The position numbers were made by a program, and so were the translations under genes. Under the pieces are notes generated by a model. That model was not told the origin of the DNA. It ran no database searches and saw only the letters and a program-made list of their open reading frames with translations. Shown here one piece after another: positions 2,463 to 52,794 of a stretch of DNA of 64,000 bases; position 1 is the first letter of the stretch, and each line of letters opens with the position of its first letter. This stretch comes from Pseudomonadota bacterium (GTDB taxonomy: Bacteria; Pseudomonadota; Gammaproteobacteria; Burkholderiales; Methylophilaceae): assembly GCA_029556915.1 (NCBI GenBank), contig JAKQIT010000102.1, forward strand, positions 1 to 64,000, written 5' to 3'.

Positions 2463-2529
2463 ACATCATTTGCAATGCTCTGTGAGCCAATAACCATGCG
2501 GCTTACAGAGCAGTGATTTTTTCTCGGGC
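2463..2529 (+). repeat. dispersed intergenic stem-loop repeat, copy 1
   Basis: This copy lies between convergent gene ends. It has the 5' box (AACATCATTTG), arms CTCTGTGAGCC and GGCTTACAGAG, and the 3' box TTCTCGGG. The loop is in the common orientation. It belongs to a family of 11 copies in this window. Confidence 0.85.
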
Positions 2530-2552
2530 GTTTTTTTACTGTTTTTTGCCGA

Positions 2553-3230
2553 TTATCTTAAGCTAATATGTGGCCAATGTTGCTGCGTTGCGTAAGCGCT
2601 TAAAGTCGCGTCGGCATCGACTGCCACGGGGTTGGTCACTAACTGCATGAGCGGCAAATCATTATGCGAATCGCTATAAAAATAGCTTACCTCAAAATCG
2701 TCTAAGGTTTTGCCACGTTCAGCCAGCCATTGGTTTAAGCGCGTCACTTTGCCAGTTTGAAAACTAGGCACGCCAACGTAATTTCCCGTAAATTCCCCGT
2801 TAATTTCTTCAGGGTCGGTGCCGATGAGATTTTCAATGCCAAACTCAAGTGCAATGGGGCGCGTGATAAAGCTATTGGTTGCGGTAATCACCAGCAATAA
2901 ATCGCCTTGTGCGCGATGTTTTTCAACCAATGCACGTGCTTTTTTCGTCATCATCGGGCGGATGATTTGTTGCATGTATTTTAAATGCACCTCATTTAAA
3001 AAAGCGTGTTTGTGTTGTGAAAGCGGGTGTAATTGAAACTTTAAAAACGCATCAATATCGAGTTTGCCTTGTTTGTAATCTTCATGAAATTGCACGTTTC
3101 TATCGTGGTGTGCGGCTTTATCAAGCAGGCCTTGCGCAATCATAAATTGCCCCCACTGAAAATCGCTATCGCCAGCCAGTAGCGTGTTATCTAAATCAAA
3201 TAGGGCAAGGTTTTGTTTTTTTTGGTTCAT
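2553..3230 (-). CDS. HAD superfamily IB phosphatase (SerB-like)
   Basis: This is a 225-residue hydrolase of haloacid dehalogenase subfamily IB. The catalytic motif I is LFDLDNTLLAGDSD (about 10-23), where the first Asp is the nucleophile. A Thr-containing motif II (LLVITATNS) lies near residue 115, and motif IV SDSHNDLPLM near 187 binds Mg2+. The family includes phosphoserine phosphatase and related small-molecule phosphatases, but the substrate cannot be read from sequence. The gene is followed on the same strand 23 bases away by a DMT permease gene (transcribed first), so the two may share a transcript. Confidence 0.85.
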   Translation of the reverse strand: MNQKKQNLALFDLDNTLLAGDSDFQWGQFMIAQGLLDKAAHHDRNVQFHEDYKQGKLDIDAFLKFQLHPLSQHKHAFLNEVHLKYMQQIIRPMMTKKARALVEKHRAQGDLLLVITATNSFITRPIALEFGIENLIGTDPEEINGEFTGNYVGVPSFQTGKVTRLNQWLAERGKTLDDFEVSYFYSDSHNDLPLMQLVTNPVAVDADATLSAYATQQHWPHISLR

Positions 3231-3253
3231 GTCTTTAATCTCAGGGTTATATT

Positions 3254-4135
3254 TTAAGCTTTAATCGTTTCGTTATTCGCGGTGAGCACTAAAATCACAC
3301 CAACTAAAATGACTGCAAGCGCGATATATTCATTCGTCGTCACCACCTCATTAGCAAGCCAAATGCCCACAATAAAAGCCACCACAGGGTTCACAAAAGT
3401 ATTGCTGCTCGCCACCAGTGGACGCACCGTTTTAAGCAAATACATATAAGCACTATAAGACACCAGTGAGCCAAGTACTACCAAAAACGCCAAAGCCCAC
3501 CATGATTTCGCACTGATGGCTTGCGGCCACGCTTCACCACGCACTGCACTAGCGACCATCATCACAAAGCCGCCAATCAACATTTGGCAGGCTGCCGCCA
3601 TCAAGCCTGATGGCATAGGAATATGCTTGCTCAAAACTGAACCAAATGACCAACTGGCCGCTGCAAAAATCAGCAACAGCGCACTGGTTACATCGCCATG
3701 TAAACTGCCGCCCATATTGAGCAAGACAATGCCCACTAGGCCCACAAAAATACCTATCCATTCTTGACGGCTGATTTTATGTCCCCAAAAACTAGAAAAA
3801 ATCGCCATCCAAATCGGTGCTGTGGCAATCGACAGCGCCGCAATGCTGGAAGAAACCGTCTGTTGCACAAAAGTGACCGTGCCATTACCAAATACGGGTA
3901 ATAAAATGCCCAAGCCGCTTGCGCCAAGCCACTGCGCGCGCGCGGGGTTAGGTGAACCGACATAGCGCAACACCCCATATAAAATAATGCCTGCCACCGT
4001 AAAGCGCAAACCGACCAATAAAAACGGCGGAAAACTTTCAATGCCAAATTTCAGTGCTAAGTAGGTTGAACCCCAAAAAAAATAGGTGCAAAACAGCGCA
4101 GCGACGATGAATAAAGTTTGGTTTTTATGTGGCAT
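3254..4135 (-). CDS. EamA/DMT family permease
   Basis: This is a 293-residue inner-membrane protein with two repeated EamA domains and about ten membrane helices. The N-terminal segment with the pattern FFWGSTYLALKFGIESFPP is typical of the YedA-like branch of drug/metabolite transporters. Members export amino acids, nucleosides or other metabolites, and the substrate here is unknown. It lies upstream of, and close to, the HAD phosphatase gene on the same strand. Confidence 0.9.
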   Translation of the reverse strand: MPHKNQTLFIVAALFCTYFFWGSTYLALKFGIESFPPFLLVGLRFTVAGIILYGVLRYVGSPNPARAQWLGASGLGILLPVFGNGTVTFVQQTVSSSIAALSIATAPIWMAIFSSFWGHKISRQEWIGIFVGLVGIVLLNMGGSLHGDVTSALLLIFAAASWSFGSVLSKHIPMPSGLMAAACQMLIGGFVMMVASAVRGEAWPQAISAKSWWALAFLVVLGSLVSYSAYMYLLKTVRPLVASSNTFVNPVVAFIVGIWLANEVVTTNEYIALAVILVGVILVLTANNETIKA

Positions 4136-4153
4136 AAAAATAGTTGAAATTGC

Positions 4154-4222
4154 ACATCTTCATTTGGCCACCTCTGAAAGCCAATATCCATAAGGCTTCC
4201 AGAGGGGTAAATTTCTCTCGGT
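4154..4222 (+). repeat. dispersed intergenic stem-loop repeat, copy 2
   Basis: This copy sits between the start of the permease gene and the 3' end of leuA. It has 5' box ACATCTTCATTTG, arms CCTCTGAAAGCC and GGCTTCCAGAGG, and 3' box TCTCTCGG, with the loop in the common orientation. Confidence 0.85.
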
Positions 4223-4268
4223 GTAATTTTGCGTAATATTTGCAGGCTTTTTAAGCTATTTTTGCTGA

Positions 4269-5807
4269 TTAAACTTGCGGGTTCATTTTCTCAAGTTTGC
4301 TGTGCAATTTATTTAAGCCGTTCAAATACGCTTTGGCTGAGGCAATCACAATATCAGTATCTGCACCTTGACCATTCACGATACGCCCACCTTTTGAAAG
4401 GCGCACTGTGACTTCACCCTGCGCATCGGTACCGCTGGTGATGTTGTTCACAGAGTACAATTGCAATTCCGCGCCGCTGTTGACGATATTTTCAATCGCT
4501 TTAAAGGTCGCATCCACTGGGCCGCCGCCGTCTGCTTCGGCTTTTTGTTCTGTGCCGTTATCCGAAATGGTTATATAAGCATGTGGAATTTCGCCAGTTT
4601 GTGAAGTGACTTGCAAGTAAACCAATTTGTAATTTTCGGAGGCTTCTTGTACAAACTCATCGCTCACCAAGGCGTGCAAATCCTCATCAAAAATTTCCGA
4701 TTTTTTATCGGCTAAATCTTTAAAGCGCGCAAAAGCGGCATTTAACAAATCTTCAGTTTCAAGCTCAATGCCCAATTCTTTTAAGCGTGTTCTAAATGCA
4801 TTGCGGCCAGACAACTTGCCCAAGGTTAATTTGTTGGCGTTCCAGCCCACATCTTCAGCCCGCATGATTTCGTAAGTCTCGCGGTGTTTCAACACGCCGT
4901 CTTGGTGAATGCCGCTCTCATGCGCAAACGCATTGGCGCCCACAATAGCTTTATTCGGCTGCACGGGGTAACCGGTAATGCTTGAAACCAATTTGCTGGT
5001 GGGCACAATTTGTGTGGTATCAATGCGCGTGTCTAAGTTAAAAATATCGCGACGGGTTTTAATCGCCATTACTACTTCTTCTAAACTCGCATTGCCTGCA
5101 CGTTCGCCCAAGCCGTTAATGGTACATTCCACTTGGCGCGCGCCGCCCATCACCGCCGCTAACGAGTTGGCCACTGCCATACCTAAGTCGTTATGGCAGT
5201 GCGTGCTCCAAATGACTTTATCGCTATTTTTAACGCGTTTAATTAAAGTTGCCATACGCTCACCCCAAGGCGCTGGGATGCTGTAACCCACCGTATCGGG
5301 CACGTTAATGGTTTTTGCGCCCGCTTCAATCACCGCATCAAACACGCGCACTAAAAAATCAATGTCTGAACGCACGGCATCTTCGGCTGAAAATTCCACG
5401 TCATCGGTATATTCTTTAGCCCATTTCACCGCTTGCACTGCACGCTCAACCACTTGGTCTTCGGTCATGCGCAATTTATTTTCCATATGGATTTTGCTGG
5501 TGGCAATAAACGTATGAATGCGCCCACTTGCCGCGTGTTTAATAGCTTCACCTGCACGTCGCACGTCGTTTTCGCTGGCGCGTGCTAATGAGCACACTGT
5601 GGAGTTTTTAATAATTTTGGCGATTTCAGAAATCGCATCAAAGTCACCTGGACTCGCCGCTGCAAAGCCAGCCTCAATCACATTCACGCCCAACTTTTCA
5701 AGCTGGCGGGCAATGCGGATTTTTTCTTCTTTGGTCATGGCAGCACCAGGGCTTTGTTCGCCATCACGCAAGGTGGTGTCAAAGATGATGATTTGATCTT
5801 GTTTCAT
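4269..5807 (-). CDS. leuA: 2-isopropylmalate synthase
   Basis: LeuA condenses acetyl-CoA with 2-oxoisovalerate in the first committed step of leucine synthesis. The 512-residue length fits the type-1 bacterial enzyme. The N-terminal TIM barrel carries [13 protein letters not shown] (9-21), which includes metal- and substrate-binding residues, and the metal-binding THCHND motif near residue 205. The C-terminal 120 or so residues form the leucine-sensing regulatory domain, with glycine-rich stretches including [10 protein letters not shown]. The region upstream is 304 bases long with a possible small ORF, so the gene may have its own promoter rather than being read through from pssA. Confidence 0.98.
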
Positions 5808-6891: not shown

Positions 6892-6962
6892 AATTGCGCA
6901 ATAGAGTAAATTTTAGTTGAGCTAGTATATCAAACAGTTGCTAAGACGACTATGTGTCATTT

Positions 6963-11173: not shown

Positions 11174-11257
11174 TACATAAAAATTCCTCTTAAAATGCCC
11201 CGAGTAACCGTAAAGGTCATGCCCGTAGAATATATGCGCTAAAGCGCATTATTCATA

Positions 11258-11324
11258 CGACAAGTTTTTTATGCCTCTGGAAGCCGCATAGATATTGGCT
11301 TGCAGAGGTGCCTAAGTGAAGATG
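11258..11324 (-). repeat. dispersed intergenic stem-loop repeat, copy 3
   Basis: Read on the minus strand it has arms CCTCTGCAAGCC and GGCTTCCAGAGG and a 5' box CATCTTCACTTAG. The 3' box is degenerate (CTTGTCG where other copies have CTCTCGGG). The loop is in the common orientation. It lies after tgt. Confidence 0.8.
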
Positions 11325-11401
11325 GCGTAAAAATTTACAAAAAGACTAATTTTTAAGCACAAAAATACCCTTATAAAAACTTTTGCGTTGCAGAAAAATA
11401 G

Positions 11402-14812: not shown

Positions 14813-15514
14813 CTACTATTTTTTAGTGTACTTTTTTGCTATTCAACTTTAGTGTTCTCTGCAAATAAGCTTCCCACCAGTACGCGCTCAACTGAAGTTG
14901 CCAAGCGTGTTAGCCCCAAAATACAAAAAAAATTAAAAGAAAAAGGCTTCACTTTGGGCGCGCCTGTGTTGATGCGCATTTTTAAAGAGACGAGTGAGTT
15001 GGAAGTTTGGTTGCAAGCAGGAAATGAATACGCACTTTTTAAAAGCTATAAAATTTGCTATTTTTCGGGCAATTTAGGGCCAAAAACAAAAGTAGGCGAT
15101 TTACAAAGTCCAGAAGGGTTTTACACCGTCACGCCTAAGCAGTTCAACCCCAGCAGCCGTTTTCACCTAGCATTTAATTTGGGCTACCCGAATGCATACG
15201 ACCGCGCTTATCAGCGTACGGGTGATGCGCTCATGGTACATGGAAATTGCGTTTCTATTGGCTGTTATGCGATGACAGATAACCAAATTGAAGAAATTTA
15301 CACTATTGCTGCCGCTGCGCTCGAAGCGGGGCAACCTGCTTTTCAAGTGCAAGCGTTGCCATTTCGTTTAAGCGATGAAAATTTGGCGGCGCATAAAAAC
15401 TCCCCATGGCTTAGCTTTTGGCAAAACTTAAAAGTCGGCTACGACTATTTTGAACAACATAAAAAGCCGCCCAAAATTAGCGTCAAAAACAAGCAATATG
15501 TGTTTGAAAAGTGA
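14783..15514 (+). CDS. L,D-transpeptidase family protein (YafK-like)
   Basis: This is a 243-residue exported protein with an N-terminal signal peptide (LLSLLFFSVLFCYSTLVFS). It has a YkuD-type L,D-transpeptidase domain whose active site reads HGNCVSIGCYAMT, with H153 and the catalytic C161. The family cleaves or forms peptidoglycan-linked bonds; E. coli YafK (DpaA) releases Braun lipoprotein, but the activity of this protein is not known. Two ATG codons five codons apart could start it and neither has a clear ribosome binding site; both lie in the arms of a perfect inverted repeat. Confidence 0.9.
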   Translation: MKTQRMKLLSLLFFSVLFCYSTLVFSANKLPTSTRSTEVAKRVSPKIQKKLKEKGFTLGAPVLMRIFKETSELEVWLQAGNEYALFKSYKICYFSGNLGPKTKVGDLQSPEGFYTVTPKQFNPSSRFHLAFNLGYPNAYDRAYQRTGDALMVHGNCVSIGCYAMTDNQIEEIYTIAAAALEAGQPAFQVQALPFRLSDENLAAHKNSPWLSFWQNLKVGYDYFEQHKKPPKISVKNKQYVFEK

Positions 15515-15549
15515 TGCATAAAACACCTGTTTTTTTGACGAAATTAACA

Positions 15550-15616
15550 ACATATCATTTTGGCACCTCTGCAAGCCAGTATCTATGCGGCTTACAGAGG
15601 CATAAAATTTTCTCGG
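15550..15616 (+). repeat. dispersed intergenic stem-loop repeat, copy 4
   Basis: It has 5' box ACATATCATTTTG, arms CCTCTGCAAGCC and GGCTTACAGAGG, and 3' box TTTCTCGG, in the common loop orientation. It lies between two plus-strand genes, after the L,D-transpeptidase gene. Confidence 0.85.
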
Positions 15617-15735
15617 ACAATTTTTTGAATGTGTAAAGAGTGCATTTAAACAGCCGTAATATTGCAATAGACTTGTTTAGGCGCGAGCTTGCATGTACAC
15701 TAAACGCACCTTATTTTCATCTCGTGTAAAACCTT

Positions 15736-19820: not shown

Positions 19821-20174
19821 ATGAAAAAACTGCTCGCTGCTTTGGCATTGTTTGCCGCATTTTCAGCAAATGCTGAAATTTCCCCTAACGCGAAACAAGA
19901 AATTGCCCATTTGTTTACCCATTTAAAAACTTCTGGCTGTGAATTTAATCGTAACGGCACTTGGTACAACGCAGAAAAAGCCGTTGCGCACCTCAATCAA
20001 AAATATGAATATTTGCTGGGCAAAAAATTAATTTCCACGACGGAAGATTTTATCGTGCGTGCCGCTAGTGAAAGTAGTATGAGCCATCAAGCTTATTTGG
20101 TGAAATGTGGCGACAAAGAAACTAAAAGCGCTGTCTGGTTTAAAGAAGCATTGACTATTTTTCGTAGTAAGTGA
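19821..20174 (+). CDS. DUF5329 family exported protein
   Basis: This is a 117-residue protein with a cleavable signal peptide (MKKLLAALALFAAFSANA). The rest matches the DUF5329 pattern: EIAHLFTHLKTSGCEFNRNG, then WYNAEKAVAHLNQKY, EDFIVRAASESS and a second Cys in LVKCG. The two Cys may form a disulfide in the periplasm. The function of the family is not known. It follows clpA after a terminator and is probably a single gene. Confidence 0.85.
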   Translation: MKKLLAALALFAAFSANAEISPNAKQEIAHLFTHLKTSGCEFNRNGTWYNAEKAVAHLNQKYEYLLGKKLISTTEDFIVRAASESSMSHQAYLVKCGDKETKSAVWFKEALTIFRSK

Positions 20175-20232
20175 GTATTAACTTACTATCAGCAGTTCAA
20201 TCAGTAAGATCTAAAAAAATATTATAAAAAAC

Positions 20233-20303
20233 CATCAAATCATTTCACCTGCCCGCTAAGCCAGTCTGGATAAGGCTTCCAGCGGTATAAAAATCTCTCG
20301 GGG
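20233..20303 (+). repeat. dispersed intergenic stem-loop repeat, copy 5
   Basis: It has a 5' box AAATCATTTCACC, arms CCGCTAAGCC and GGCTTCCAGCGG, and a strong 3' box TCTCTCGGGG. The loop AGTCTGGATAA is in the common orientation. One arm pair (CCGCT against AGCGG) differs from the usual CTCTG/CAGAG, and an A-C mismatch remains. Confidence 0.85.
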
Positions 20304-20431
20304 ATTATTTGTGAGCAATAAAGCAAAAATATCATGCGTTAAATTAGCTGTAAATTTTGGCGAATTCTAACGCTAGCTATTTTAACTCTTTATTACCATC
20401 ACTCAACTGCAGTCGCAGATTTAATATTAAG

Positions 20432-26089: not shown

Positions 26090-26200
26090 GGTAGCCAAAT
26101 TTATTTGGTTATCCTTTCCGCTTTTTCCTCCCTAGGCGGAAGCCTTTACAATAAGGCATTTTGCCCCAACTCTTTATCCCCTTGAGTTGGGGCTTTTTTT
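26090..26200 (+). ncRNA. candidate small RNA with CCTCC loop
   Basis: Four perfect stems follow one another: CCAAAT/ATTTGG (26095-26108), TTCCGC/GCGGAA (26116-26141), GCCTT/AAGGC (26142-26157), and a 10-bp terminator stem GCCCCAACTC/GAGTTGGGGC (26163-26193) followed by seven T. The second loop contains CCTCCC, which could pair with Shine-Dalgarno sequences. The T-run is only on the plus strand, so transcription is rightward. The 5' end and promoter are not clear. It is not 6S, tmRNA, RNase P or 4.5S RNA as far as I can tell. Confidence 0.55.
26163..26200 (+). terminator. intrinsic terminator of the candidate small RNA
   Basis: A perfect 10-bp GC-rich stem with an 11-base loop is followed by TTTTTTT. 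No annotated gene ends upstream on this strand, which implies an unannotated transcript. Confidence 0.85.
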
Positions 26201-26317: not shown

Positions 26318-26716
26318 ATGCGTTTTGTTTCAGCGGTTTTATTGATGTTGCTAACGGGTGCTGCACATGCAGGATTAGGAGATTCGCTACGTGAGTTGCG
26401 TGGCACAATTGGCGAAATGACCAGCACCAGCCGCGAAGTGGGTGAGCTAAGCAAAGAAGTTACGCCAACAAAATCACCAGATGCGACTAAAGCTGAATCT
26501 GTAACTACGACTGAGATTAAATCAGGTGATACAATCGTTGCAAAAATGGATAAAGTCAAAGTGCTTAAAGAAGCCAATAAAAAATCAGCAAAATTATTAC
26601 AACTTTCAAAAACCGACGAAGTGATTTACATGGGTGAAGAGCAAAATGGTATGTACCGCGTCACCACCTCTGAAGGTGAGGGTTGGGTGGATAAGTTGTT
26701 AGTAAAAAAACCGTAA
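26318..26716 (+). CDS. exported SH3-domain protein
   Basis: This is a 132-residue protein with a signal peptide (MRFVSAVLLMLLTGAAHA). A charged Thr/Ser/Glu/Lys-rich linker follows, then a bacterial SH3-like domain (about 75-130) with KVKVLKEANKKSAKLL and EGEGWVDKLLVKK. Such domains often bind cell wall or partner proteins, but no role can be assigned. I chose ATG 26318 because AGGAG lies six bases upstream; the in-frame GTG one codon earlier is too close to it. Confidence 0.85.
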   Translation: MRFVSAVLLMLLTGAAHAGLGDSLRELRGTIGEMTSTSREVGELSKEVTPTKSPDATKAESVTTTEIKSGDTIVAKMDKVKVLKEANKKSAKLLQLSKTDEVIYMGEEQNGMYRVTTSEGEGWVDKLLVKKP

Positions 26717-26732
26717 TCACTCAGTAAACAGA

Positions 26733-26754
26733 CCCTGCAAGTGCAGGTTTTTTT
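26733..26754 (+). terminator. terminator after the SH3 protein gene
   Basis: CCTGCA (26734-26739) and TGCAGG (26742-26747) form a tight stem followed by seven T. Confidence 0.8.
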
Positions 26755-26791
26755 ATTGGCTAAAAAGAAAATTTTTTAACCGATTTTTATA

Positions 26792-26862
26792 ACATCTTCA
26801 TTTGTGCTGCTCTGTAAGCCAGTATGCATGCGGCTTGCAGAGACATAAAAATCTCTCGGGGG
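26792..26862 (+). repeat. dispersed intergenic stem-loop repeat, copy 6
   Basis: It has 5' box ACATCTTCATTTG, arms CTCTGTAAGCC and GGCTTGCAGAG, and 3' box TCTCTCGGGGG, in the common orientation. It lies between convergent genes (SH3 protein and ung). Confidence 0.88.
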
Positions 26863-26893
26863 ATATTAGGCTGATTTTTTAAGTTAAAAATGA

Positions 26894-27592
26894 CTAAATT
26901 TGCCAGTTAATTTCAGCTTGCCCGTGTTGCTTAAGATATTGATTGATGTTTGAAAACTGGTGGTTGCCAAAAAAGCCGCGGTGGGCAGATAAAGGCGATG
27001 GATGCACAGACTTTAAAACCAAATGTTTGCTTTCATCAATGATTGCGCCTTTCTTTTGCGCGTAGCTGCCCCACAGCACAAACACCAAATTTTCACGCTG
27101 TTTGTTGAGTGCGGCAATGGCGGCATCGGTAAATGCCTCCCAACCTTTGTTTTGATGCGAGCCCGCATTGGCTTGCTCAACGGTGAGCGTTGCATTTAAT
27201 AACAGTACGCCTTGCTCAGCCCACGGCGTTAAATCGCCGCTTTTGCTCATTTTAATGTGCAAATCGGCTTCAATCTCTTTATATATGTTTTGCAGTGAAG
27301 GCGGTAAATCCACCCCTTTAGGTACAGAAAAACTCAAGCCATGCGCTTGGGGCTGTCCAGCATTATTCTGCCCGTGGTACGGGTCTTGTCCGATAATCAC
27401 CACCCGCACTTGCTCAAATGGCGTGTGATTAAACGCATTAAAAATCAACGAGCTAGGCGGGTAGATGACTTTTCCTGTGACTTTTTTCTCTTTCAAAAAA
27501 GCTCGCAAAGCCTGCATGTAAGGTTTGTCAAACTCGCCACCAATCACGGCTTGCCATGAAGGGTGTAGCTGACCTGATTTTTCTTGAGGCAT
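26894..27592 (-). CDS. ung: uracil-DNA glycosylase (family 1)
   Basis: Ung removes uracil from DNA to start base excision repair. The 232-residue protein has the catalytic [18 protein letters not shown] region near residue 68, with the water-activating Asp, the uracil-binding [10 protein letters not shown] and [14 protein letters not shown], and the C-terminal [13 protein letters not shown] loop that inserts into the DNA. It is a standard family 1 enzyme and the only UDG in the window with an intact active site. Confidence 0.98.
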
Positions 27593-31930: not shown

Positions 31931-32029
31931 TTTTATCAAAAGTGTTCATAAATTAAACATGCCTAAAAAAGACAGAGGTTTTAAAATATTGAGTGCAATA
32001 AAATGATGATTTTTTGCCTGATTTACACC

Positions 32030-32097
32030 CCGAGAGAAATTCATGCCTCTGGAAGCCGCATCCAGACTGGCTTAGCGGGGAGGTGAAAAGAAGTAGT
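32030..32097 (-). repeat. dispersed intergenic stem-loop repeat, copy 7
   Basis: Read on the minus strand, arms CCGCTAAGCC and GGCTTCCAGAGG enclose the loop AGTCTGGATGC, and the 3' box is TCTCTCGGGG. The 5' box is weak (CTTCTTTTCACC). Loop orientation is the common one. It lies downstream of rlhA. Confidence 0.85.
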
Positions 32098-32150
32098 GCT
32101 ATTTTTGACAATAAAATGGCTTTTAAAACAATGCCATATCAGACAGGTTT

Positions 32151-34067
32151 TTATGGTCGCTTGTTAAAAAACTGTACGGTTTGCGGCGGACCCATTTGGA
32201 TGACGGGTTTGCGAATTTGTCCCATCACGTGCATTTCACAGGGTTTGCAGTCAAATTTGAGGGTAAATCTATCGTTGCCGTTAATTAGCGTCATCGGTTC
32301 TGCGGTGACGGTGCCTTGTACCCCCAAGACCCCTTTAGCTTCTTTTGGGCAGAGGCCGTGGCTAAAGCGTAAGCAATGTTTGGTTATCATCACTGGCACT
32401 TCGCCTAATTCTTCATTGGCTTCATAAGCTTTTGCAATCATTTTAACGCCGTGCTTTTCGTAAAATTGCCGCGCTTTTTGATTGTAAACATTGGCAAGAT
32501 AACTTAGCGTATCTTCTGGGTAAATAGCAGGCGGCATTGCAGTGGCGTGGCGTGGCGGGCGCTGGTAACCACCATTTCTTGCCGATTGTAGTTGCTCTAC
32601 AGCGTCGCGACGTAACTGGTTAATGATGGAAGCGGGTACAAAATAAGTATGTTGCGTCTGCAGGTGAATTTCATTGGCAATAAAATCTGTATTACCTAAT
32701 TTGCTTAAGTTTTCTCGCAGGCTTGTTTCAGCTTTTTCTGGAGTGTTTGCAATTTGCTTTTCTGCTTTACAAAATGCAGTAGCAGTAAAACCAGCGCTAT
32801 CGGTAATACTTAACGCAAAGCCATCTTGCGTTTCGGCAAAAATCAATTCAACCGTTATTTTGCGCGTGGCGGAGTCTTTTTCTAGCAATCGCATAAAAGC
32901 GTGGTCACGGTTGCGGTACATCACCGTATTGTTACGAATATCGGCAGGCATTTCGTTGGGGTAAAGTTTTTTGCCATCCACGGTGTTAATGCGTAAGCCG
33001 ACGAGTTCTTTATGCACATCAAAAAAGCATACGCCATCGCCATTATGCAGTTGCGTCGCCGTTTCAACTTCAATAAAGTCTTTGCCTACTTTGGTGACCT
33101 TGCCGAGTAGTTCACCAGAAAATTTTGGCGTGTCAAATGCGCCAATATCCGCTTGGCGGCCGTTAGCAAAATAATCGGTTGCGCTACGGTTAAAGGTTTT
33201 TTCGGGTTGTGGCGCAAATGTGTAAGCGCAATCCCCATGAGAAGATTTCGCTAACTCAGGCCGTTCATGCAAAATTTCATCTAATAGCTGGCGATAATGC
33301 GCCGTGGCATTTTTAACATATGGCAAATCTTTATAGCGACCTTCAATTTTAAAGCTGCTCACACCCGCATCAATCAAAGCGCGCAGGTTAGCACTTTGAT
33401 CATTATCTTTCATCGATAAAAAATGTTTATCTTTACCAATGATGCGGCCTTTTTGGTCTTCTAAGGTGAATGGTAAGCGGCATTCTTGTGAGCATTCACC
33501 GCGGTTGGCACTGCGGCCAGTGTGTGCGTGGCTAATGTAACATTGCCCACTAAACGCCACGCACAGTGCGCCATGAATAAAATATTCTAAATTTGCAGTG
33601 GTGGCATTGGCAATTTGTTTCACTGAGTTTAAGTCTAACTCGCGCGCTAATACCATTTGACTAAAGCCTACTTGGTCTAAAAACACTGCTTTTTCTACAG
33701 TGCGAATATCTGTTTGTGTGCTGGCGTGCAACTGAATTGGCGGTAAATCTAATTCCAGCAGCCCCATATCCTGCACTATCAGCGCATCTACGCCAATATC
33801 GTAAAGTTGATGCGTGAGTTTGCGGGCAGCTTCTAACTCGTTGTCATGAAAAATGGTATTAAGCGCAACAAAAATTTCAGCATGGAATCGATGCGCATGT
33901 TTTACCAAACGTGCAATATCTTCTAATGTATTGGGCGCTTTTGCACGCGCACCAAACGCAGGCCCGCCGATATACACCGCATCAGCCCCGTGGTTAATCG
34001 CCTCAATGCCAAAATCAGCATTGCGCGCGGGGGCAAGAAGTTCTAAGTGATGACGGTTTTTTAGCAT
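32151..34067 (-). CDS. rlhA: U32 family protein, 23S rRNA C2501 hydroxylation RlhA-like
   Basis: This 638-residue protein of the peptidase U32 family matches E. coli RlhA (YdcP), which is needed for 5-hydroxycytidine at 23S rRNA position 2501. It begins HHLELLAPARNADFGIEAIN with GADAVYIGGPAFGA near residue 29. It has the U32 signature with FSGQCYISHAHTGRSANRGE and a second Cys cluster in the C-terminal region (HCLRFSHGLCPKE and CKPCEMHVMG), thought to bind an iron-sulfur cluster. The length agrees with RlhA rather than the shorter TrhP-type proteins. Confidence 0.88.
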   Translation of the reverse strand: MLKNRHHLELLAPARNADFGIEAINHGADAVYIGGPAFGARAKAPNTLEDIARLVKHAHRFHAEIFVALNTIFHDNELEAARKLTHQLYDIGVDALIVQDMGLLELDLPPIQLHASTQTDIRTVEKAVFLDQVGFSQMVLARELDLNSVKQIANATTANLEYFIHGALCVAFSGQCYISHAHTGRSANRGECSQECRLPFTLEDQKGRIIGKDKHFLSMKDNDQSANLRALIDAGVSSFKIEGRYKDLPYVKNATAHYRQLLDEILHERPELAKSSHGDCAYTFAPQPEKTFNRSATDYFANGRQADIGAFDTPKFSGELLGKVTKVGKDFIEVETATQLHNGDGVCFFDVHKELVGLRINTVDGKKLYPNEMPADIRNNTVMYRNRDHAFMRLLEKDSATRKITVELIFAETQDGFALSITDSAGFTATAFCKAEKQIANTPEKAETSLRENLSKLGNTDFIANEIHLQTQHTYFVPASIINQLRRDAVEQLQSARNGGYQRPPRHATAMPPAIYPEDTLSYLANVYNQKARQFYEKHGVKMIAKAYEANEELGEVPVMITKHCLRFSHGLCPKEAKGVLGVQGTVTAEPMTLINGNDRFTLKFDCKPCEMHVMGQIRKPVIQMGPPQTVQFFNKRP

Positions 34068-37463: not shown

Positions 37464-37593
37464 AAAACGTAACTTTCGTCATCATACGGCGTTGCTCACA
37501 AAAAATAATACCTTACATATAACCCATATGCAGCTAGCTTATTTTTTGTTCGCGCCTTGTCTGATTTAGCAATTTCCATTTTTTGGAGAATTT

Positions 37594-38019
37594 ATGCACG
37601 TAAGCGTTAAATGGATTGACGGTGTCAGTTTTGTCGGTGAATCAGAGACTGGACATGCGGTAGTGCTGGATGGTGCGCCTGAAAACGGTGGGCGCAATAT
37701 CGGCATGCGGCCGATGGAGATGTTGCTAATAGGTATGGGTGGCTGTACATCATTTGATGTAGTGGCCATATTAAAAAAAGCGCGTCAGCCCATAGTGCAT
37801 TGCGTGGCAGAGATTAGTGCAGAGCGCGCTGATGAGATTCCAAAGGTGTTTACTAAAATTCACGTACACTTTGTAGTAACAGGTGATAACTTGAATGAAA
37901 CGCAAGTGGAGCGTGCTGTGAAATTGTCGGCTGAGAAATATTGCTCAGCTTCAATTATGCTTTCAAAATCGGTGGAAATTACCCACAGTTTTGAAGTAAA
38001 GCCGCTGACTGTCGTTTAG
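37594..38019 (+). CDS. OsmC family protein (YhfA-like)
   Basis: This is a 141-residue protein with the OsmC fold. It has GMRPMEMLLIGMGGCTSFDV, where the conserved Cys sits near residue 50, and the second Cys region SAEKYCSASIML near 111. OsmC and Ohr proteins reduce organic hydroperoxides with this Cys pair; the YhfA branch is less well characterised. A good TTGGAG precedes the ATG. It appears to be a single gene. Confidence 0.93.
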   Translation: MHVSVKWIDGVSFVGESETGHAVVLDGAPENGGRNIGMRPMEMLLIGMGGCTSFDVVAILKKARQPIVHCVAEISAERADEIPKVFTKIHVHFVVTGDNLNETQVERAVKLSAEKYCSASIMLSKSVEITHSFEVKPLTVV

Positions 38020-38040
38020 CATTTAAAAGCTGCAAAAAAC

Positions 38041-38109
38041 TCTCGAGAAAAAATAAATGCTCTGCAAGCCAGTCTCTATGCGGCTTGCAGAGCATCAAAA
38101 TGATTTGTG
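38041..38109 (-). repeat. dispersed intergenic stem-loop repeat, copy 8 (inverted loop)
   Basis: Read on the minus strand it has the 5' box AAATCATTTTG, arms CTCTGCAAGCC and GGCTTGCAGAG, and a 3' box TTTCTCGAG. The loop is GCATAGAGACT, the reverse complement of the loop in most copies. The core is therefore flipped relative to the boxes. It lies between convergent genes. Confidence 0.85.
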
Positions 38110-38171
38110 TGCGTTTTCGATAAAAATTAAATAAAAAATGTCACAAAAAAAGCAGTAAAAACCGCTGACAT

Positions 38172-38492
38172 TTAAGCCTCAATAATTTTTACAGTAAGCG
38201 GCTGCTCATCTTCCAAAATATTCAGTAATCTGTCCACATTCGGATGTTTGCCAGGGCAATTTTCTGCATCTTCAGTATGTTCGGCATATAAGCTTAGGCC
38301 CTCAACGGCCGCATCTAAAGAGATTTCACCATACATTTTGTATAAATGGTGATAAACCTTCACAGAGCCTTGGCTGCCAGGCTTGTTATCAATCACTCCA
38401 GCAGGGCTGCCATCCACATTAAAAAGTTCTATACGTTTTACGTGCGAGGCATCATCAAGGCCCAATAAAACGTCACTAAATTTTTGCATCAT
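38172..38492 (-). CDS. DUF2322 family protein
   Basis: This is a 106-residue soluble protein matching DUF2322, with NKPGSQGSVKVYHHLYK near residues 36-52, EGLSLYAEHTEDAENCPGKH near 63-82 and PNVDRLLNILE after it. The family is conserved mainly in betaproteobacteria and has no known function. Two adjacent ATG codons could start it. It is downstream of coq7 on the same strand, 15 bases away. Confidence 0.9.
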   Translation of the reverse strand: MMQKFSDVLLGLDDASHVKRIELFNVDGSPAGVIDNKPGSQGSVKVYHHLYKMYGEISLDAAVEGLSLYAEHTEDAENCPGKHPNVDRLLNILEDEQPLTVKIIEA

Positions 38493-42062: not shown

Positions 42063-42347
42063 ATGGCTAACAATATTGAAATTACTTATTGCACACAATG
42101 CCGCTGGTTATTGCGTGCGGCTTGGCTGGCGCAAGAGTTGCTCACCACTTTTGAGCAAGAGTTGACCAGTGTTGCTTTAAAGCCGAGCACGGGTGGCATT
42201 TTTGATGTGCATTTAAATGGTCAGCTGATTTATTCACGTAAAGTGCAGGGGCGTTTTCCTGAATCTAAAGAGCTAAAACAACTGGTGCGTGATGTGATTG
42301 ACCCCACGCGCGATTTGGGTCATAGCGATACAAAAATAAATCAATAA
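42063..42347 (+). CDS. SelT/SelW/SelH (Rdx) family protein
   Basis: This small protein of 94 residues has the thioredoxin-like redox motif CTQC near residue 10 (IEITYCTQCRWLL). It contains no selenocysteine. The family includes selenoprotein W; the bacterial role is not well known. The ATG has AAGGA nine bases upstream. A GTG one codon before it would sit six bases from the same element and is also possible. It is divergent from ctpA. Confidence 0.9.
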   Translation: MANNIEITYCTQCRWLLRAAWLAQELLTTFEQELTSVALKPSTGGIFDVHLNGQLIYSRKVQGRFPESKELKQLVRDVIDPTRDLGHSDTKINQ

Positions 42348-42362
42348 ATTTAGCTTTATAAT

Positions 42363-42433
42363 CCCCCGAGGGCAAAACCATCGGCCTGTAATCCAGTATC
42401 CATGCGGATTCCAGAGGTGCTAAAAAGAAGATG
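42363..42433 (-). repeat. dispersed intergenic stem-loop repeat, copy 9 (inverted loop)
   Basis: Read on the minus strand it has 5' box ACATCTTCTTTTT, arms CTCTGGAATCC and GGATTACAGGC and a 3' box CCTCGGGGG. The loop GCATGGATACT is inverted relative to most copies. Its stem carries compensating changes in the inner pairs (AATCC/GGATT instead of AAGCC/GGCTT). It lies between convergent genes. Confidence 0.82.
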
Positions 42434-42441
42434 TGTTATTT

Positions 42442-42999
42442 TTAGGGTAAATTGGATGCGTTTTGTTGCGCTAAATTGACTTCATTTTCTAGCCGTTGCG
42501 CACCACTATAACGCTGCGCCCAATAACCCACCATCGGCTCAATGCGGACTTGGCCTCTAGTGTTGGGCGCATGTATAAAGCGGTTATCGCCCATATAAAT
42601 GCCCACGTGAGAAATGGTGTTTTTCACCGTGTTAAAAAACACCAAATCGCCCGCTTGTAGGTCTTGCTTGGCAATGGCTGTGCCTAATTGGCTTTGCGCA
42701 AAAGTGTTGCGCGGTAACGCTAAATTAACACTTTGTTTAAATACATATTGCACAAAGCCACTGCAGTCAAAGCCCGTTTCAGGCGAACTTCCACCGTATT
42801 TATATTTGGTGCCTTTTAAACTCAGTGCGTTTAACAACACCTCGCGCGACCATGCAGGCCAAGCCTCAGTGTTAACGGTTTCGTTAGACGTGCTGCTTTT
42901 TGTTGGCGCCGTGGAGCAAGCAACGCAAATAACACTTAATACGACGCAAAAAATCAGCCGCCAGCTAAGCAAAACCTGAAATGGATTAAAAAAACGCAT
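42442..42999 (-). CDS. NlpC/P60 family lipoprotein endopeptidase
   Basis: This is a 185-residue exported protein with a lipobox VACS after the signal helix (FCVVLSVICVAC). The C-terminal C40 peptidase domain has the catalytic Cys in GFDCSGFVQYVF, the His in SHVGIYMG and the third residue in FIHAPNTRGQV. Such enzymes cut peptidoglycan stem peptides (gamma-D-Glu-mDAP). It is a short single-domain protein like E. coli Spr (MepS). Confidence 0.93.
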   Translation of the reverse strand: MRFFNPFQVLLSWRLIFCVVLSVICVACSTAPTKSSTSNETVNTEAWPAWSREVLLNALSLKGTKYKYGGSSPETGFDCSGFVQYVFKQSVNLALPRNTFAQSQLGTAIAKQDLQAGDLVFFNTVKNTISHVGIYMGDNRFIHAPNTRGQVRIEPMVGYWAQRYSGAQRLENEVNLAQQNASNLP

Positions 43000-43067: not shown

Positions 43068-44993
43068 ATGAGTGAACTCACCATCCGCAGTGTATTTGAA
43101 GAAAACGGCATTCTAGCCAACCAAATTGCAGGCTATAACGTACGCACACAGCAGCTAGAGATGGCGCTTGCCATTGAGCAAGCCATTCAACATAATCAGC
43201 AGTTGGTGGCGGAAGCCGGCACCGGCACAGGTAAAACGTTTGCATATTTAGTGCCAGCGTTGTTATCAGGTGGCAAAGTCATTATTTCCACCGGCACCAA
43301 AACCCTGCAAGATCAACTTTATAGCCGCGATTTACCCAATGTGCGTGATGCGCTTAAAGTGCCAGTCACCGTGGCGATGCTCAAGGGCCGCGCCAATTAT
43401 GTGTGCCATTATCATTTAGAACATGCGGCGCAAAGTGGGCGCTTTACCACGCGTGAAGATGCAAGCCATGTGCAAATCATCAAAACATTTGCTGAAAATA
43501 GCAAAACTGGCGATAAAGCCGAACTCACCACCGTGCCGGAAAACGCCACCATTTGGCCGCATGTCACCAGTACCCGTGATAATTGCTTGGGGCAAGATTG
43601 CCAACATTATAAGGATTGCTTTGTGATGGAAGCGCGTAAGCGCGCATTGGCGGCCGATGTGGTGGTAGTGAACCATCACTTATTCTTTGCCGATGTGATG
43701 CTGCGCGATGAAGGTGTCACCGAGCTTTTACCTTCCGCCAACACGGTGATTTTTGATGAGGCACATCAGTTACCTGAAGTAGCCGGGCTATTTTTTGGCG
43801 AAGATATTTCTACCAGCCAGTTGATGGATTTAGCGCGTGACTGCACCACGGCGTATATCACGCTGGCTAAAGATTGCGTGGCGCTGGGCGATGCAATTCC
43901 CCTGCTTGAAAAAGCCTGTAAAGATTTTAGACTCACTTTTCAATATGAAGGCTCGCGCTTACCTGTGCAAAAAGCCCTGGCGCTGAAAAACTTTGAAGAG
44001 AATTTTGCGCACATGCAAACCAAACTCGCTGAGTTAAACACAGTGTTAGAAACCCAAGCCGCGCGCGACCCGATGCTAGAAAAATGCTGGCAGCGCGGTA
44101 TGGAGCTGAGCGCGCAACTGAGCAATTGGCTAAAAGCCGGTAATGAAAATTTAGTGCGCTGGGTAGAGGTGTTTACGCAAAGTGTGCAACTGCACGCAAC
44201 GCCCTTGAGTGTGGCCGATGGTTTTGGCAAACAACTTAACGCCCAACCTCGCGCGTGGATTTTCACCTCGGCCACCCTAGCGGTGAAAAGCGATTTTGGC
44301 CATTATCAAGCGCAAATGGGCTTGCAAAACGCCCAAACCGGTTATTGGCAAAGCCCTTTTGATTATGGCAACCAAGCTTTGCTGTATGCGCCTGCCAATA
44401 TGCCAGACCCCAATTCGCCTGCCTACACCTCAGCAGTAGCAGCGGTAGCCTTGCCTGTTATTCAAGCCAGCAAGGGTCGTGCGTTTGTGCTGTGCACCTC
44501 GCTCAAAGCCATGCGAGAAATCCACGCGCTGCTCAAAGAAGCGTTTGCAGAAAATGGCATGGAATACCCGCTATTGCTGCAAGGCGACACAACACGTACC
44601 GAGTTGCTAGAACGCTTTCGCAAACATGGCAACGCCGTGTTGGTGGGCAGCCAAAGCTTTTGGGAAGGCGTGGACGTGCGTGGCGAAGCCTTAAGCGCGG
44701 TGATTATAGACAAACTGCCTTTTGCTCCGCCCGATGACCCCGTGCTTTCGGCTCGCATTGATAAAATGAACGCTGAGGGCAAAAATGCGTTTATGGAGTA
44801 TCAACTCCCGTATTCGGTGATTACGCTTAAGCAAGGTGCTGGCAGGCTGATACGCGATGAAAATGACCGCGGCGTGCTGGTGATTTGTGACCCGCGCTTA
44901 ATTACCAAGCCTTATGGCAGACGCATTTGGCAGAGTTTACCACCGTTTAAACGGACAAGAGAGTTGGCGGATGTGCAGGCGTTTTTTGGGTAA
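43068..44993 (+). CDS. DinG/YoaA-type ATP-dependent DNA helicase
   Basis: This is a 641-residue superfamily 2 helicase of the XPD group. It has Walker A AEAGTGTGKTFAYL near residue 49, the DEAH box as IFDEAHQLP near 225, and the C-terminal QGAGRLIRDENDRGVLVICD motif VI. Four Cys in YVCHYHLE, NCLGQDCQHYKDC supply the [4Fe-4S] site. The family repairs stalled forks and R-loops. The length and Cys layout fit YoaA more than DinG. Confidence 0.92.
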   Translation: MSELTIRSVFEENGILANQIAGYNVRTQQLEMALAIEQAIQHNQQLVAEAGTGTGKTFAYLVPALLSGGKVIISTGTKTLQDQLYSRDLPNVRDALKVPVTVAMLKGRANYVCHYHLEHAAQSGRFTTREDASHVQIIKTFAENSKTGDKAELTTVPENATIWPHVTSTRDNCLGQDCQHYKDCFVMEARKRALAADVVVVNHHLFFADVMLRDEGVTELLPSANTVIFDEAHQLPEVAGLFFGEDISTSQLMDLARDCTTAYITLAKDCVALGDAIPLLEKACKDFRLTFQYEGSRLPVQKALALKNFEENFAHMQTKLAELNTVLETQAARDPMLEKCWQRGMELSAQLSNWLKAGNENLVRWVEVFTQSVQLHATPLSVADGFGKQLNAQPRAWIFTSATLAVKSDFGHYQAQMGLQNAQTGYWQSPFDYGNQALLYAPANMPDPNSPAYTSAVAAVALPVIQASKGRAFVLCTSLKAMREIHALLKEAFAENGMEYPLLLQGDTTRTELLERFRKHGNAVLVGSQSFWEGVDVRGEALSAVIIDKLPFAPPDDPVLSARIDKMNAEGKNAFMEYQLPYSVITLKQGAGRLIRDENDRGVLVICDPRLITKPYGRRIWQSLPPFKRTRELADVQAFFG

Positions 44994-45034
44994 TTTGTTG
45001 AACAATTTATATGTTGAATTTTCTTGCAAAATTT

Positions 45035-45101
45035 CTCCGAGAGATTTTTATGCCTCTGGAAGCCGCATGCAGACTGGCTTGTAGAGGTGGTCAAATGATG
45101 T
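45035..45101 (-). repeat. dispersed intergenic stem-loop repeat, copy 10
   Basis: Read on the minus strand it has 5' box ACATCATTTGACC, arms CCTCTACAAGCC and GGCTTCCAGAGG with one mismatch, loop AGTCTGCATGC, and 3' box TCTCTCGGAG. The loop orientation is the common one. It lies after the helicase gene and before arfB. Confidence 0.85.
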
Positions 45102-45185
45102 TGTGCAAATTTAATGACTAAAATGGCATTTTTTAGTTAAAAAATACGCACTCTTTTTTTGTAATAAAATCACCATTTTTTGATT

Positions 45186-47337: not shown

Positions 47338-47439
47338 TTGTAAAAGATTGTCCTAGGCATTGAAATTTAGCGGATAAACGCTATCTTAGTTAAGCAAATA
47401 ATAAAATCATCAATTTTTTGACTTTATAGAGGAATCAAC

Positions 47440-48039: not shown

Positions 48040-48068
48040 GTTGGCCACTTACTAGAGTTAAGCCACTT

Positions 48069-48941: not shown

Positions 48942-48943
48942 GT

Positions 48944-49471: not shown

Positions 49472-49567
49472 GTAGATTCTCAAAAAGCACTATAACAATA
49501 GCTGACTAAATGCCTGATTCTATGTAAAATTCGCTTCTTTGATTTTTATTTATAGAGTTGGTTTTAC

Positions 49568-51289: not shown

Positions 51290-51307
51290 CTTTTTGATAT
51301 TTTGAAT

Positions 51308-51946
51308 ATGCGTAAATTGATTCAACCTTTAATTTTACTTTTGATGCTGTTCTCAGCAGCTAGCTTTGCGGGTTCGCAACGCGAAGAGCCGCTTTCAAAT
51401 AGCGTAAAAGCGATGATGCAGCGCAGTATTAGCGATAAAGCTGCGCCGCGATTGATGTTTTCCACGGTTGAAGAGGGCGAGTTTTGGTTAACGGAGATGT
51501 CGCAACGCTTGCAAAAACGCATGCCAGACCAAGCTTACCGTGAAGACTTTTTGCGTACTGTGCATTACGAAGCAACCCGTGCAGGCTTAGACCCACAAAT
51601 GGTGCTCGGCCTCATTCAAGTGGAAAGCGGCTTTAAAAAATACGCGGTTTCAAGCGTAGGCGCACGGGGATTTATGCAAGTAATGCCGTTTTGGTCCCGG
51701 AGTATTGGTGCGCCAGACCATAATCTATTTTTATTGCGTACAAACTTACGCTATGGCTGCACCATTTTGCGCCACTATATTGATATTGAGCGGGGAGATT
51801 TATATCGCGCATTAGGTCGATATAACGGTAGTTTAGGCAGGCCGCAATACCCCAATTTGATATTGGGCGCATGGAAAAAACACTGGCATTACGAGCCGCA
51901 AAATTTTAATAGTTTTAAAAATTCTCAAAAAATCGCACAAAATTAG
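51308..51946 (+). CDS. lytic transglycosylase SLT-domain protein
   Basis: This is a 212-residue exported protein with a signal peptide (RKLIQPLILLLMLFSAASFA). The SLT (goose-lysozyme-like) domain has the catalytic Glu in LGLIQVESGFKKYAVS and the motif GARGFMQVMPFWSRSIG, followed by GRYNGSLGRPQYPN. It would cleave the glycan strand with formation of anhydro-muropeptides. I start at ATG 51308; the TTG two codons earlier is in frame but unnecessary. It follows proS after 18 bases. Confidence 0.93.
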   Translation: MRKLIQPLILLLMLFSAASFAGSQREEPLSNSVKAMMQRSISDKAAPRLMFSTVEEGEFWLTEMSQRLQKRMPDQAYREDFLRTVHYEATRAGLDPQMVLGLIQVESGFKKYAVSSVGARGFMQVMPFWSRSIGAPDHNLFLLRTNLRYGCTILRHYIDIERGDLYRALGRYNGSLGRPQYPNLILGAWKKHWHYEPQNFNSFKNSQKIAQN

Positions 51947-51971
51947 TGCATTTTTGCCCATAAAAACACTT

Positions 51972-51995
51972 TCATTCACCCAAACGGGTGAATGA
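51972..51995. terminator. strong hairpin after the lytic transglycosylase gene
   Basis: TCATTCACCC (51972-51981) and GGGTGAATGA (51986-51995) form a perfect 10-bp stem with an AAAC loop. The following TTGTCGCTT is only weakly T-rich, so it may be a terminator or a protecting hairpin. Confidence 0.55.
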
Positions 51996-52150
51996 TTGTC
52001 GCTTACACAAGTTTACATTTCTAGCAAAATCATTCAGTATCGCTCTAGCGTTTAATACGCAAAGGGGGAAGCCAAAAAAACTCACAGCGTGTTATCGCCG
52101 CAATTCGCATCATCTTAGTATTCACTAAAATTATTATATAGGAGAAAAGT

Positions 52151-52666
52151 ATGTCGAAATTAACTGCACTTGCATTAAGTATTGCTGTTTTGGGAGGCGT
52201 TTGGGCATTTTTAGCACTAGGCCCATTGGGAGGGGAAACGCCAATTGCGTTGGTTTGGGTTGGTTTTATTGCGTGGGGATGTTTTTTCCACTCAGGTGGG
52301 GATGGTGCAGCTTTACAAAAAACCATCGCAGGCATGATATTTGGTGCAATTATGGCAGGTATCGCGCTGTATTTAGTGGGTTCTGGCATGTTAAGTGGCT
52401 TGGGCGCATTAGGTGCACCGTTGATTATTGCGGTAACTGTTTTTCCATTGGTGGCGGTGGCAGGGATGAATTTGCTTTCCGTCGTGCCAGCTAATGTGTA
52501 CGGCTATGCCGCAACCGCAGGTTTAGCACTTACCGCAGGCACCGTGGGCAATGTGACTGCTGCAGGCTTGGCTAATCCAGTGGTGTTGGTGATTATTTCA
52601 ACCATTATTGGCGCAATTTTCGGGCTATTGTCTGGAAAAGTGGCAGGCATGTTAGGCGGAAAATAG
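52151..52666 (+). CDS. DUF1097 family membrane protein
   Basis: This 171-residue protein has about six hydrophobic segments and small-residue-rich helices (GLGALGAPLIIAVTVFPLVA) matching DUF1097. Its function is unknown; related short transporters occur in varied bacteria. TAGGAGA precedes the ATG. It is a single gene bounded by a hairpin and a strong terminator. Confidence 0.87.
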   Translation: MSKLTALALSIAVLGGVWAFLALGPLGGETPIALVWVGFIAWGCFFHSGGDGAALQKTIAGMIFGAIMAGIALYLVGSGMLSGLGALGAPLIIAVTVFPLVAVAGMNLLSVVPANVYGYAATAGLALTAGTVGNVTAAGLANPVVLVIISTIIGAIFGLLSGKVAGMLGGK

Positions 52667-52683
52667 CAATTTTTCGCGCAGTA

Positions 52684-52711
52684 AAAAAAGCCGCTAAAAA
52701 GCGGCTTTTTT
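52684..52711. terminator. bidirectional terminator after DUF1097 gene
   Basis: AAAAAAGCCGC (52684-52694) and GCGGCTTTTTT (52701-52711) pair perfectly around TAAAAA. Confidence 0.88.
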
Positions 52712-52726
52712 CATGGTTGTTTTTCA

Positions 52727-52794
52727 ACAAATCATTTTACATCCTCTGCAAGCCTTATTCTATGCGGCTTCCAGAGGCATAAAAAATCCTCGGG
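52727..52794 (+). repeat. dispersed intergenic stem-loop repeat, copy 11
   Basis: It has 5' box AAATCATTTTAC, arms CCTCTGCAAGCC and GGCTTCCAGAGG, loop TTATTCTATGC and 3' box ATCCTCGGG, in the common orientation. It lies between convergent genes and directly follows the DUF1097 terminator. Confidence 0.87.

Follow-up and report, generated by a model that had tools for sequence, protein, structure and literature searches.

Why should a short palindrome recur at one gene end after another? The 64-kb stretch of Methylophilaceae DNA analysed here (contig JAKQIT010000102.1, positions 1 to 64,000; hereafter the window) carries eleven intergenic copies of a hairpin element with two outer boxes. The original prediction, made from the letters of the window, suggested that they may be mobile palindromes, similar to repetitive extragenic palindromes (REPs) or miniature inverted-repeat transposable elements (MITEs), or else a class of transcript 3'-end element. 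The main feature of the family was overlooked: on both sides the hairpin is flanked by regularly phased A/T tracts, which point to a function at the level of the DNA.

Architecture and abundance of the element

A covariance model (R1; 75 positions, 11 pairs) was built from the eleven window copies. It recovers all eleven where they had been predicted, with E 3.2e-12 or better, as expected by construction. The host genome (G000) is 3.28 Mb long, and the sample used for most analyses consisted of the window plus C14:1-400000, or 464 kb. At E≤0.01, R1 gives 113 matches in this sample, corresponding to 70 distinct non-overlapping elements; the remaining 43 are opposite-strand matches to the same palindromes. 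The density is one element per 6.6 kb, and by extrapolation from the 464 kb the genome appears to hold about 490 copies, in agreement with the expectation of hundreds. A whole-genome search with R1 returned at least 150 matches, the lowest among those listed scoring 60.6 bits. Against the mean spacing, two deserts can be seen, C14:13540-50861 with no copy and C14:160365-202367 with one.

The consensus runs CAACATCATTTCACC - CCTCTGNAAGCC - an 11-nt loop, often AGTATCCATGC - GGCTTNCAGAGG - CATAAAAATCTCTCGGG, so that the core is an inverted repeat of 35 bp whose loop spans 11 bp, set between two outer boxes. This is the architecture originally described, but the layout is not uniform. The inner hairpin is inverted relative to the boxes in the window copies at 38041 and 42363 and, judged by loop type, in 11 of 67 copies in G000 and 10 of 37 in G035, a second species. 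In addition, a mostly unpaired position separates the two helical parts of the stem. Base changes in the arms had been noted as often compensated, and this is borne out: a 37-sequence alignment from multiple genomes contains 28 two-sided changes, compared with 11.0 ± 2.3 in shuffles, and 95.3% of its cells are paired, although these counts are open to inflation by relatedness and by palindrome correction. No element in the window matches Rfam at the gathering threshold, and a more permissive test of one copy gave best matches with E 0.33 or worse.

Four of the 70 copies carry the same palindromic insert of about 56 bp at the mismatched stem position (L043:17865-17995, L046:475-605, L048:3752-3883 and L039:14940-15006); in the L039 copy it sits in the other stem arm.

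Position relative to genes

The element is linked to gene 3' ends, above all to convergent ones. Gene context was assigned using a purpose-made gene caller, and some of the intragenic labels that it gives reflect wrong starts or ends (C14:191998, C14:224259). The 70 copies comprise 32 in convergent gaps, 27 in tandem gaps, 4 in divergent gaps and 7 labelled intragenic, so that 63 lie outside called genes. Within the window the same caller places five copies in convergent gaps, six in tandem gaps and none between divergent genes, as the original reading had it. An element is held by 32 of the 49 convergent pairs in the sample. If only gaps of at least 75 bp are considered, 30 of 34 convergent gaps are filled by a strict rule (one more by a looser rule), as are 27 of 124 tandem gaps and 4 of 38 divergent gaps; the figure of 30 of 34 is partly circular, because the element itself lengthens the gap, whereas 32 of 49 is free of this. 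In tandem gaps the orientation is evenly mixed (13 sense, 14 antisense).

Of the seven copies labelled intragenic, four are convincing, with open frames running through copies in genes that we take, from resemblance rather than a family search, to be mutL, a ZIP-family transporter gene, pabB and gluQ. Another of the seven is an overlap with the end of the Y1 transposase gene described below. The copy in gluQ brings a net gain of 12 residues relative to relatives. In several congeners the mutL linker encodes remnants of related palindromes, which indicates that palindromes visited this site earlier.

Phased A/T tracts on both sides of the hairpin

Copies were aligned on the loop centre, using 67 from G000 and 36-37 from G035, whose hairpin has diverged. 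Copies longer than 90 bp owing to inserts were excluded (three in G000, one in G035), while at least two of the 67 hairpin centres, which are misplaced and have odd loops, were retained. A+T content peaks at ±40, 51, 62, 74, 85, 97 and 108 bp from the loop centre, with troughs between, and declines from 0.97-0.99 at the peaks closest to the hairpin to about 0.75 at the last ones. The best period is 11.25-11.5 bp on each side, found independently in the two species, and 0 of 1000 circular-shift nulls reach it on either side. The peaks are mirror-symmetric about the loop, agreeing within half a base: the first lies at 39.25 bp on the left and 39.5 on the right in G000, and at 39.0 and 38.75 in G035. 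The signal fades by about 110 bp from the loop centre, with weak traces beyond. Each unit is about 220 bp long, around an unphased centre of about 75 bp.

The flanks lie outside the search model, and hence the phasing cannot arise from model fitting. Phase is present in 132 of 134 sides in G000, with a mean score of about 2.5, in 49 of 50 sides of 25 held-out G000 copies from other stretches, and in 24 of 26 sides of 13 copies from other genomes, whereas 3000 random anchors were positive in 50% of cases. Single copies average about 3 standard deviations above background, which is too little for elements to be found by phasing alone; it is a property of the family and not a stand-alone detector. 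Control repeat families in G000 have three copies each, too few for a comparison of phasing, and the G000 assembly has a reported contamination of 5.65%.

Each phased tract is made up either of successive A or of successive T, with few TpA and ApT steps, as in curved DNA. At the peaks, TpA stands at 0.56 and ApA at 1.5 of column expectation in G000, and at 0.60 and 1.37 in G035; an intergenic control gives 0.93 and 1.15, calculated with a simpler expectation than the peak values. The phasing does not stop at gene boundaries. When only coding positions are considered, t is 7.2 at 59-82 bp, 8.6 at 82-104 bp and 4.8 at 104-127 bp, and the mean phase score of the seven copies labelled intragenic (2.61) equals that of convergent copies (2.60) almost exactly.

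Distribution among relatives and evidence for mobility

The host is Methylotenera-like, its closest named relatives belonging mostly to Methylotenera. Model R1 found no match at E≤1e-5 in 24 genomes from other genera of the order. Within the genus, 52 members were surveyed using a broader covariance model (R2) at E≤1e-4 with strict filters. Five have at least 58 copies (G000, G034 and G035 at least 93 each, G009 76 and G001 58), nine have 1-5 copies, and the other 38 have no detectable copy. In an unrooted tree of ten chosen genomes, a split supported at 0.97 has the five element-rich genomes together on the same side, a grouping that is consistent with one expansion. G034 and G035 hold a minority of G000-type copies, their majority type being different. 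It was considered whether the G035 loop and 5' box, which differ from those of G000 at shared sites, represent coevolving dialects bound by one factor, and this was rejected: G000-type copies are also present in G035 and G034, and replacement of one subfamily by another is as likely.

The proposal of REP- or MITE-like mobility stands in part. The patchy spread and the in-frame intragenic copies speak for it, as does the 3' end of leuA, where the element lies in opposite orientation in L096 and L104. No target-site duplication was seen: flank identity exceeds column expectation by no more than the choice among 1936 windows would produce (best z 2.96 in G000, 2.15 in G035). A GTAG or CGTC end tag is absent, the conserved boxes being CATCATTT or CAACCTTTTT and TCTCGG. 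A link to a REP-associated tyrosine transposase (RAYT) is likewise unsupported: there is one Y1_Tnp match in G000, two in G034 and three in G009, several occur in element-free genomes, and none was found in element-rich G035 and G001, the assemblies being incomplete. Mobilisation by a RAYT was accordingly rejected, because Y1 genes do not track elements; the single Y1 gene of G000, in C14, has its 3' end inside an element copy, yet it also adjoins a GTAG-type repeat. No phage carriage was detected, two exact patterns matching 0 viral contigs, but diverged copies would escape such patterns.

Two further observations concern other palindromes. A single Y1 transposase gene was found in G000, and a GTAG-type REP-like palindrome lies upstream of it, at L001:1245-1400. 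The leuA 3' ends of element-free congeners (L083, L085, L086, L088, L095, L103 and L084) often have palindromes of a different appearance in the corresponding intergenic position.

Selection on the flanks or choice of target

The flanks could be phased because selection keeps them so, or because the element enters DNA that is already curved. Sequence from eight congeners, in which R2 finds 0 matches in 324.5 kb, served as an element-free control. No 11-bp periodicity is seen at their 57 convergent junctions (0.001 ± 0.005), nor at the 17 element-free convergent junctions of G000 (0.005 ± 0.007). Element sites in G000 give 0.041 ± 0.007 in convergent gaps (n=32) and 0.038 ± 0.008 in tandem gaps (n=29).

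Orthologous sites provide a second line of evidence. For six window sites, G034, G035 or both carry an element in the identical position and orientation, with the hairpin loop and 5' box differing by lineage. Others are empty elsewhere: those at 11258 and 45035 in both G034 and G035, and that at 42363 in G035. At the shared sites the local similarity score of orthologous flanks is 9.2 (n=21), compared with 7.6 ± 2.0 for non-orthologous flanks (n=105) and 19.9 for a G034-G035 control, while phase is found in 21 of 21 scorable orthologue sides. Phase thus persists at shared sites after the letters of the flanks have mostly diverged. In coding DNA, 17 gene sides flanking elements score 0.73 in G000 (t 3.4) and 0.18 in relatives (t 0.9), with a paired t of 2.5. 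At mutL, the two sides score 3.8 and 1.2 in G000, and 17 relatives average 1.1 and -0.5. The lack of phase at element-free convergent junctions, and its persistence at orthologous sites that have diverged, favour the view that the phased flanks are maintained by selection. Insertion into curved DNA is likely to contribute alongside selection.

A proposed function

We hypothesise that this is a REP-like element acting at the level of the DNA, that its phased flanks are kept by selection, and that it works by bending or wrapping DNA where transcription piles up supercoils. We consider the chances that this is correct to be about evenly balanced. The phased tracts would curve the DNA, which could then wrap a protein complex or, with the inverted repeat as its apex, become the end of a supercoiled loop. 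Such a structure, sited beyond gene ends on DNA that transcription supercoils positively, could capture or pin the topological machinery. DNA gyrase is the likeliest predicted partner; alternatively, the unit may bind a nucleoid protein or simply pin a plectoneme. The family would probably have originated as a mobile REP-like palindrome, whose flanks have since been held in phase by selection.

A more far-reaching form of this hypothesis may be put forward tentatively, as possible though doubtful. It holds that a mobile palindrome has been turned into hard-wired topological landmarks at most convergent junctions that are long enough and at many other gene ends. The hairpin would mark the dyad of a wrapping signal some 220 bp long, similar to that of a nucleosome, and selection would preserve the phase of this signal even within neighbouring coding sequence; the copies together would make up a sequence-encoded, genome-wide docking grid for a DNA-wrapping complex.

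Several results weigh against selection for a DNA-level function. The quality of the hairpin has no link to the strength of the phasing, poorer hairpins being no less phased (rho 0.12, p=0.35), and a weak 11-bp A/T periodicity runs throughout the sampled 464 kb of G000, away from elements too. Element-free divergent gaps of G000 are periodic (0.026 ± 0.006, n=40); the same class of gap in congeners gives 0.011 ± 0.004 (n=47), likewise a less favourable result. In G035, convergent element sites score 0.026 ± 0.012 (n=17) and element-free ones 0.010 ± 0.010 (n=11). Some similarity persists in the orthologous flanks, whose phase could thus be partly inherited, and the excess of G000 over relatives at the 17 flanking-gene sides is modest. 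At gluQ, nine hairpin-less relatives with alignable flanks are already phased, scoring 2.0 and 1.6 (G000: 3.4 and 2.6), which supports insertion into curved DNA. Most congeners, 38 of the 52, get by with no detectable copy. Finally, some copies may have a one-strand role in termination, in view of the T-richness that follows the stem on one strand.

Gyrase itself is a candidate partner whose fit is one of kind and not of exact geometry. The likeness lies in helically phased AT/GC arms on both sides of a distinct centre. The gyrases tested prefer DNA in which GC content varies with a period of 10-11 bp up to 120 bp from the cut, a pattern that arises from wrapping (PMC12324340), and the E. coli motif is organised as 47+36+47 bp with phasing of about 10 bp (PMC12393610, PMC6379681). 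The present element differs in its centre of about 75 bp rather than 36, its period of 11.25-11.5 bp, its longer arms, reaching to ±110 bp, and the conserved inverted repeat in the middle. In E. coli, gyrase acts preferentially at sites in BIME-2 (a class of bacterial interspersed mosaic element) and downstream of transcription units, and the downstream attraction is reported as not hard-wired in the sequence (PMC6379681).

A sequence-encoded, symmetric and phased unit occupies most of the sizeable convergent junctions sampled, suggesting an intrinsic site at which DNA twist or packing is managed rather than plain repeat clutter. The places to which transcription draws gyrase are considered the main determinant of how bacteria cope with collisions between transcription-driven supercoils. 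If the element does bind gyrase or a nucleoid protein, then sister species with many copies and with none offer a natural experiment on the control of supercoiling and the packing of the genome. A selfish element, too, would show an unusual choice of target, or unusual survival, according to DNA curvature.

Alternative explanations

The alternative that survives best, although we think it unlikely, is a selfish REP- or MITE-like palindrome with no host role. Spread by some transposase, it would insert only into intrinsically curved DNA, always in one rotational setting, and would survive at gene ends, where it does least harm. Such an element would explain the bimodal copy number among congeners, the in-frame intragenic copies, the opposite orientation at leuA, the G000-type minority within G034 and G035, and the gluQ flanks already phased in relatives that lack the hairpin. 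It is less easily reconciled with the missing target duplication and with the finding of no Y1 transposase in G035 and G001. Moreover, most sizeable convergent gaps are filled, which leaves little room for choice; convergent gaps of similar size in element-free congener regions are unphased; and phase is retained at old shared sites.

A role in RNA, with the hairpin terminating, trimming or protecting transcripts and possibly serving as a terminator on one strand, is improbable as the main function. The covarying stem and the location at 3' ends are what it would lead one to expect, and a T-rich stretch (6 or more T among 8 bases, beginning no further than 4 nt beyond the stem) is present on the 3'-box strand of 15 of 67 copies in G000 and 20 of 37 in G035. 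On the other strand the same criterion picks out 0 of 67 and 1 of 37 copies, so the T-rich side is on one strand only, while the orientation relative to the gene is random. Stem mismatches are nearly equally A-C (30) and G-T (35) over all positions, with no clear wobble preference. In a simple scan, 39% of 64 element-bearing convergent gene ends have an intrinsic terminator, as do 42% of 62 in element-free congener regions. In G000, other terminators occur in 7% of the 28 tandem gaps that hold an element and in 27% of the 105 that do not; G035 shows no such depletion (33% of 15 and 23% of 60, respectively). From these scans, the element is no general replacement for terminators. Nor does an RNA role account for the phased DNA. 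The original suggestion of a transcript 3'-end element is weakened, although some copies may act in termination on one strand. The idea that the two flanks themselves supply terminator arms was examined and rejected, since the left and right flanks of a copy, when joined, show no better folding than mismatched pairs.

A mutational footprint, in which one helix face is protected by a protein wrapped around the element and mutations therefore recur at each turn with no selection on sequence, as in nucleosome-linked mutation periodicity, would account for the mirror symmetry and the spread into coding sequence, but is very improbable, given that the A- and T-run tracts with few TpA steps resemble curvature beyond base composition and that the gluQ relatives are phased with no element present.

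Relation to known repeats

REPs are short, mostly intergenic palindromes, present in hundreds and favouring convergent and tandem gene ends, and a gyrase-mediated relief of transcription-driven supercoiling has been proposed for them (PMC3733652, PMC6379681). The element shares these properties with the REPs and BIME-2 of Escherichia coli, and as a 35-bp hairpin with 70 copies in 464 kb, 63 of them outside called genes, it has the short, high-copy, mostly intergenic character expected of the GTAG/CGTC superfamilies of REPs. It differs in having no GTAG/CGTC tag, in its loop of 11 nt and pair of outer boxes, and in A/T flanks that stay in phase out to about ±110 bp. BIMEs have a mosaic form, whereas the present elements are mostly single copies.

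Palindromes have been described in frame within protein genes, including DNA repair genes (PMC3733652). The copy in mutL recalls these intragenic REPs and the palindromic elements of Rickettsia, a likeness of placement, and one that concerns only about 4 of the 70 sampled copies, those clearly inside genes. The phasing resembles the phased AT-tracts of bacterial genomes, an approximately 11-bp 'structural code': periods above 10.5 bp have been linked to plectonemic loops, and phased AT-tracts to the loop tips (PMC4132750). Here, by contrast, the phase keeps a fixed register with one particular inverted repeat, which recurs at gene 3' ends. In the open-access literature we found no report of REP or palindromic repeats of this sort in Methylotenera/Methylophilaceae, nor of phased A-tract flanks around REPs.

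The elements of the window

The eleven elements were located by the covariance model, gene calls and comparison of orthologous sites, and the phased A/T zone of each, which has no strand, is taken as ±110 bp around its loop centre. For all eleven the zone rests on the family result, and for elements 1, 2, 4, 6, 7 and 8 also on orthologue analysis at the site itself. Five elements lie in convergent gaps. Element 1 (2457..2531, plus strand; zone 2384..2604) consists of 5' box, hairpin and 3' box, assigned from the model and gene calls; its orthologous site is occupied in G034 and G035, with a weak match in G001. Element 6 (26789..26863, plus; zone 26716..26936) was compared with its orthologous site and stands behind a separate terminator-like hairpin with a T-tract. 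Element 8 (38039..38113, minus; zone 37966..38186) has its orthologous site occupied in G001, G034 and G035. Like it, element 9 (42363..42437, minus; zone 42290..42510), found by the model, has the inverted inner hairpin mentioned above. Element 11 (52723..52797, plus; zone 52650..52870) is supported by the model and gene calls.

The other six are in tandem gaps. Element 2 (4151..4225, plus; zone 4078..4298), from the model, is at the 3' end of leuA, antisense to the genes, and its orthologous site is occupied in both G034 and G035. Elements 4 (15546..15620, plus; zone 15473..15693) and 7 (32026..32100, minus; zone 31953..32173) are supported by the model, gene calls and orthologous-site comparison, and elements 5 (20231..20305, plus; zone 20158..20378) and 10 (45033..45107, minus; zone 44960..45180) by the model and gene calls. 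In element 3 (11254..11328, minus; zone 11181..11401) a GTCG-type REP stands in place of the 3' box.

This REP-like repeat, GTCGTATGAATAATGCGC-TTTA-GCGC..., is found at 11204-11259 of the window and also at C14:204632 and C14:77700, adjoining the hairpin element or fused to it. It takes the place of the 3' box in two copies and has matches in several congeners. A second dispersed repeat, of about 110 bp, lies at 37470-37582 and has three copies in the 464-kb sample; among the matches listed, most of nine congeners searched have several more, including genomes free of the hairpin element. At 26115-26200 there is a match to the Rfam family anti-hemB (RF02837), barely over the gathering score (51.4 vs 49.5 bits).

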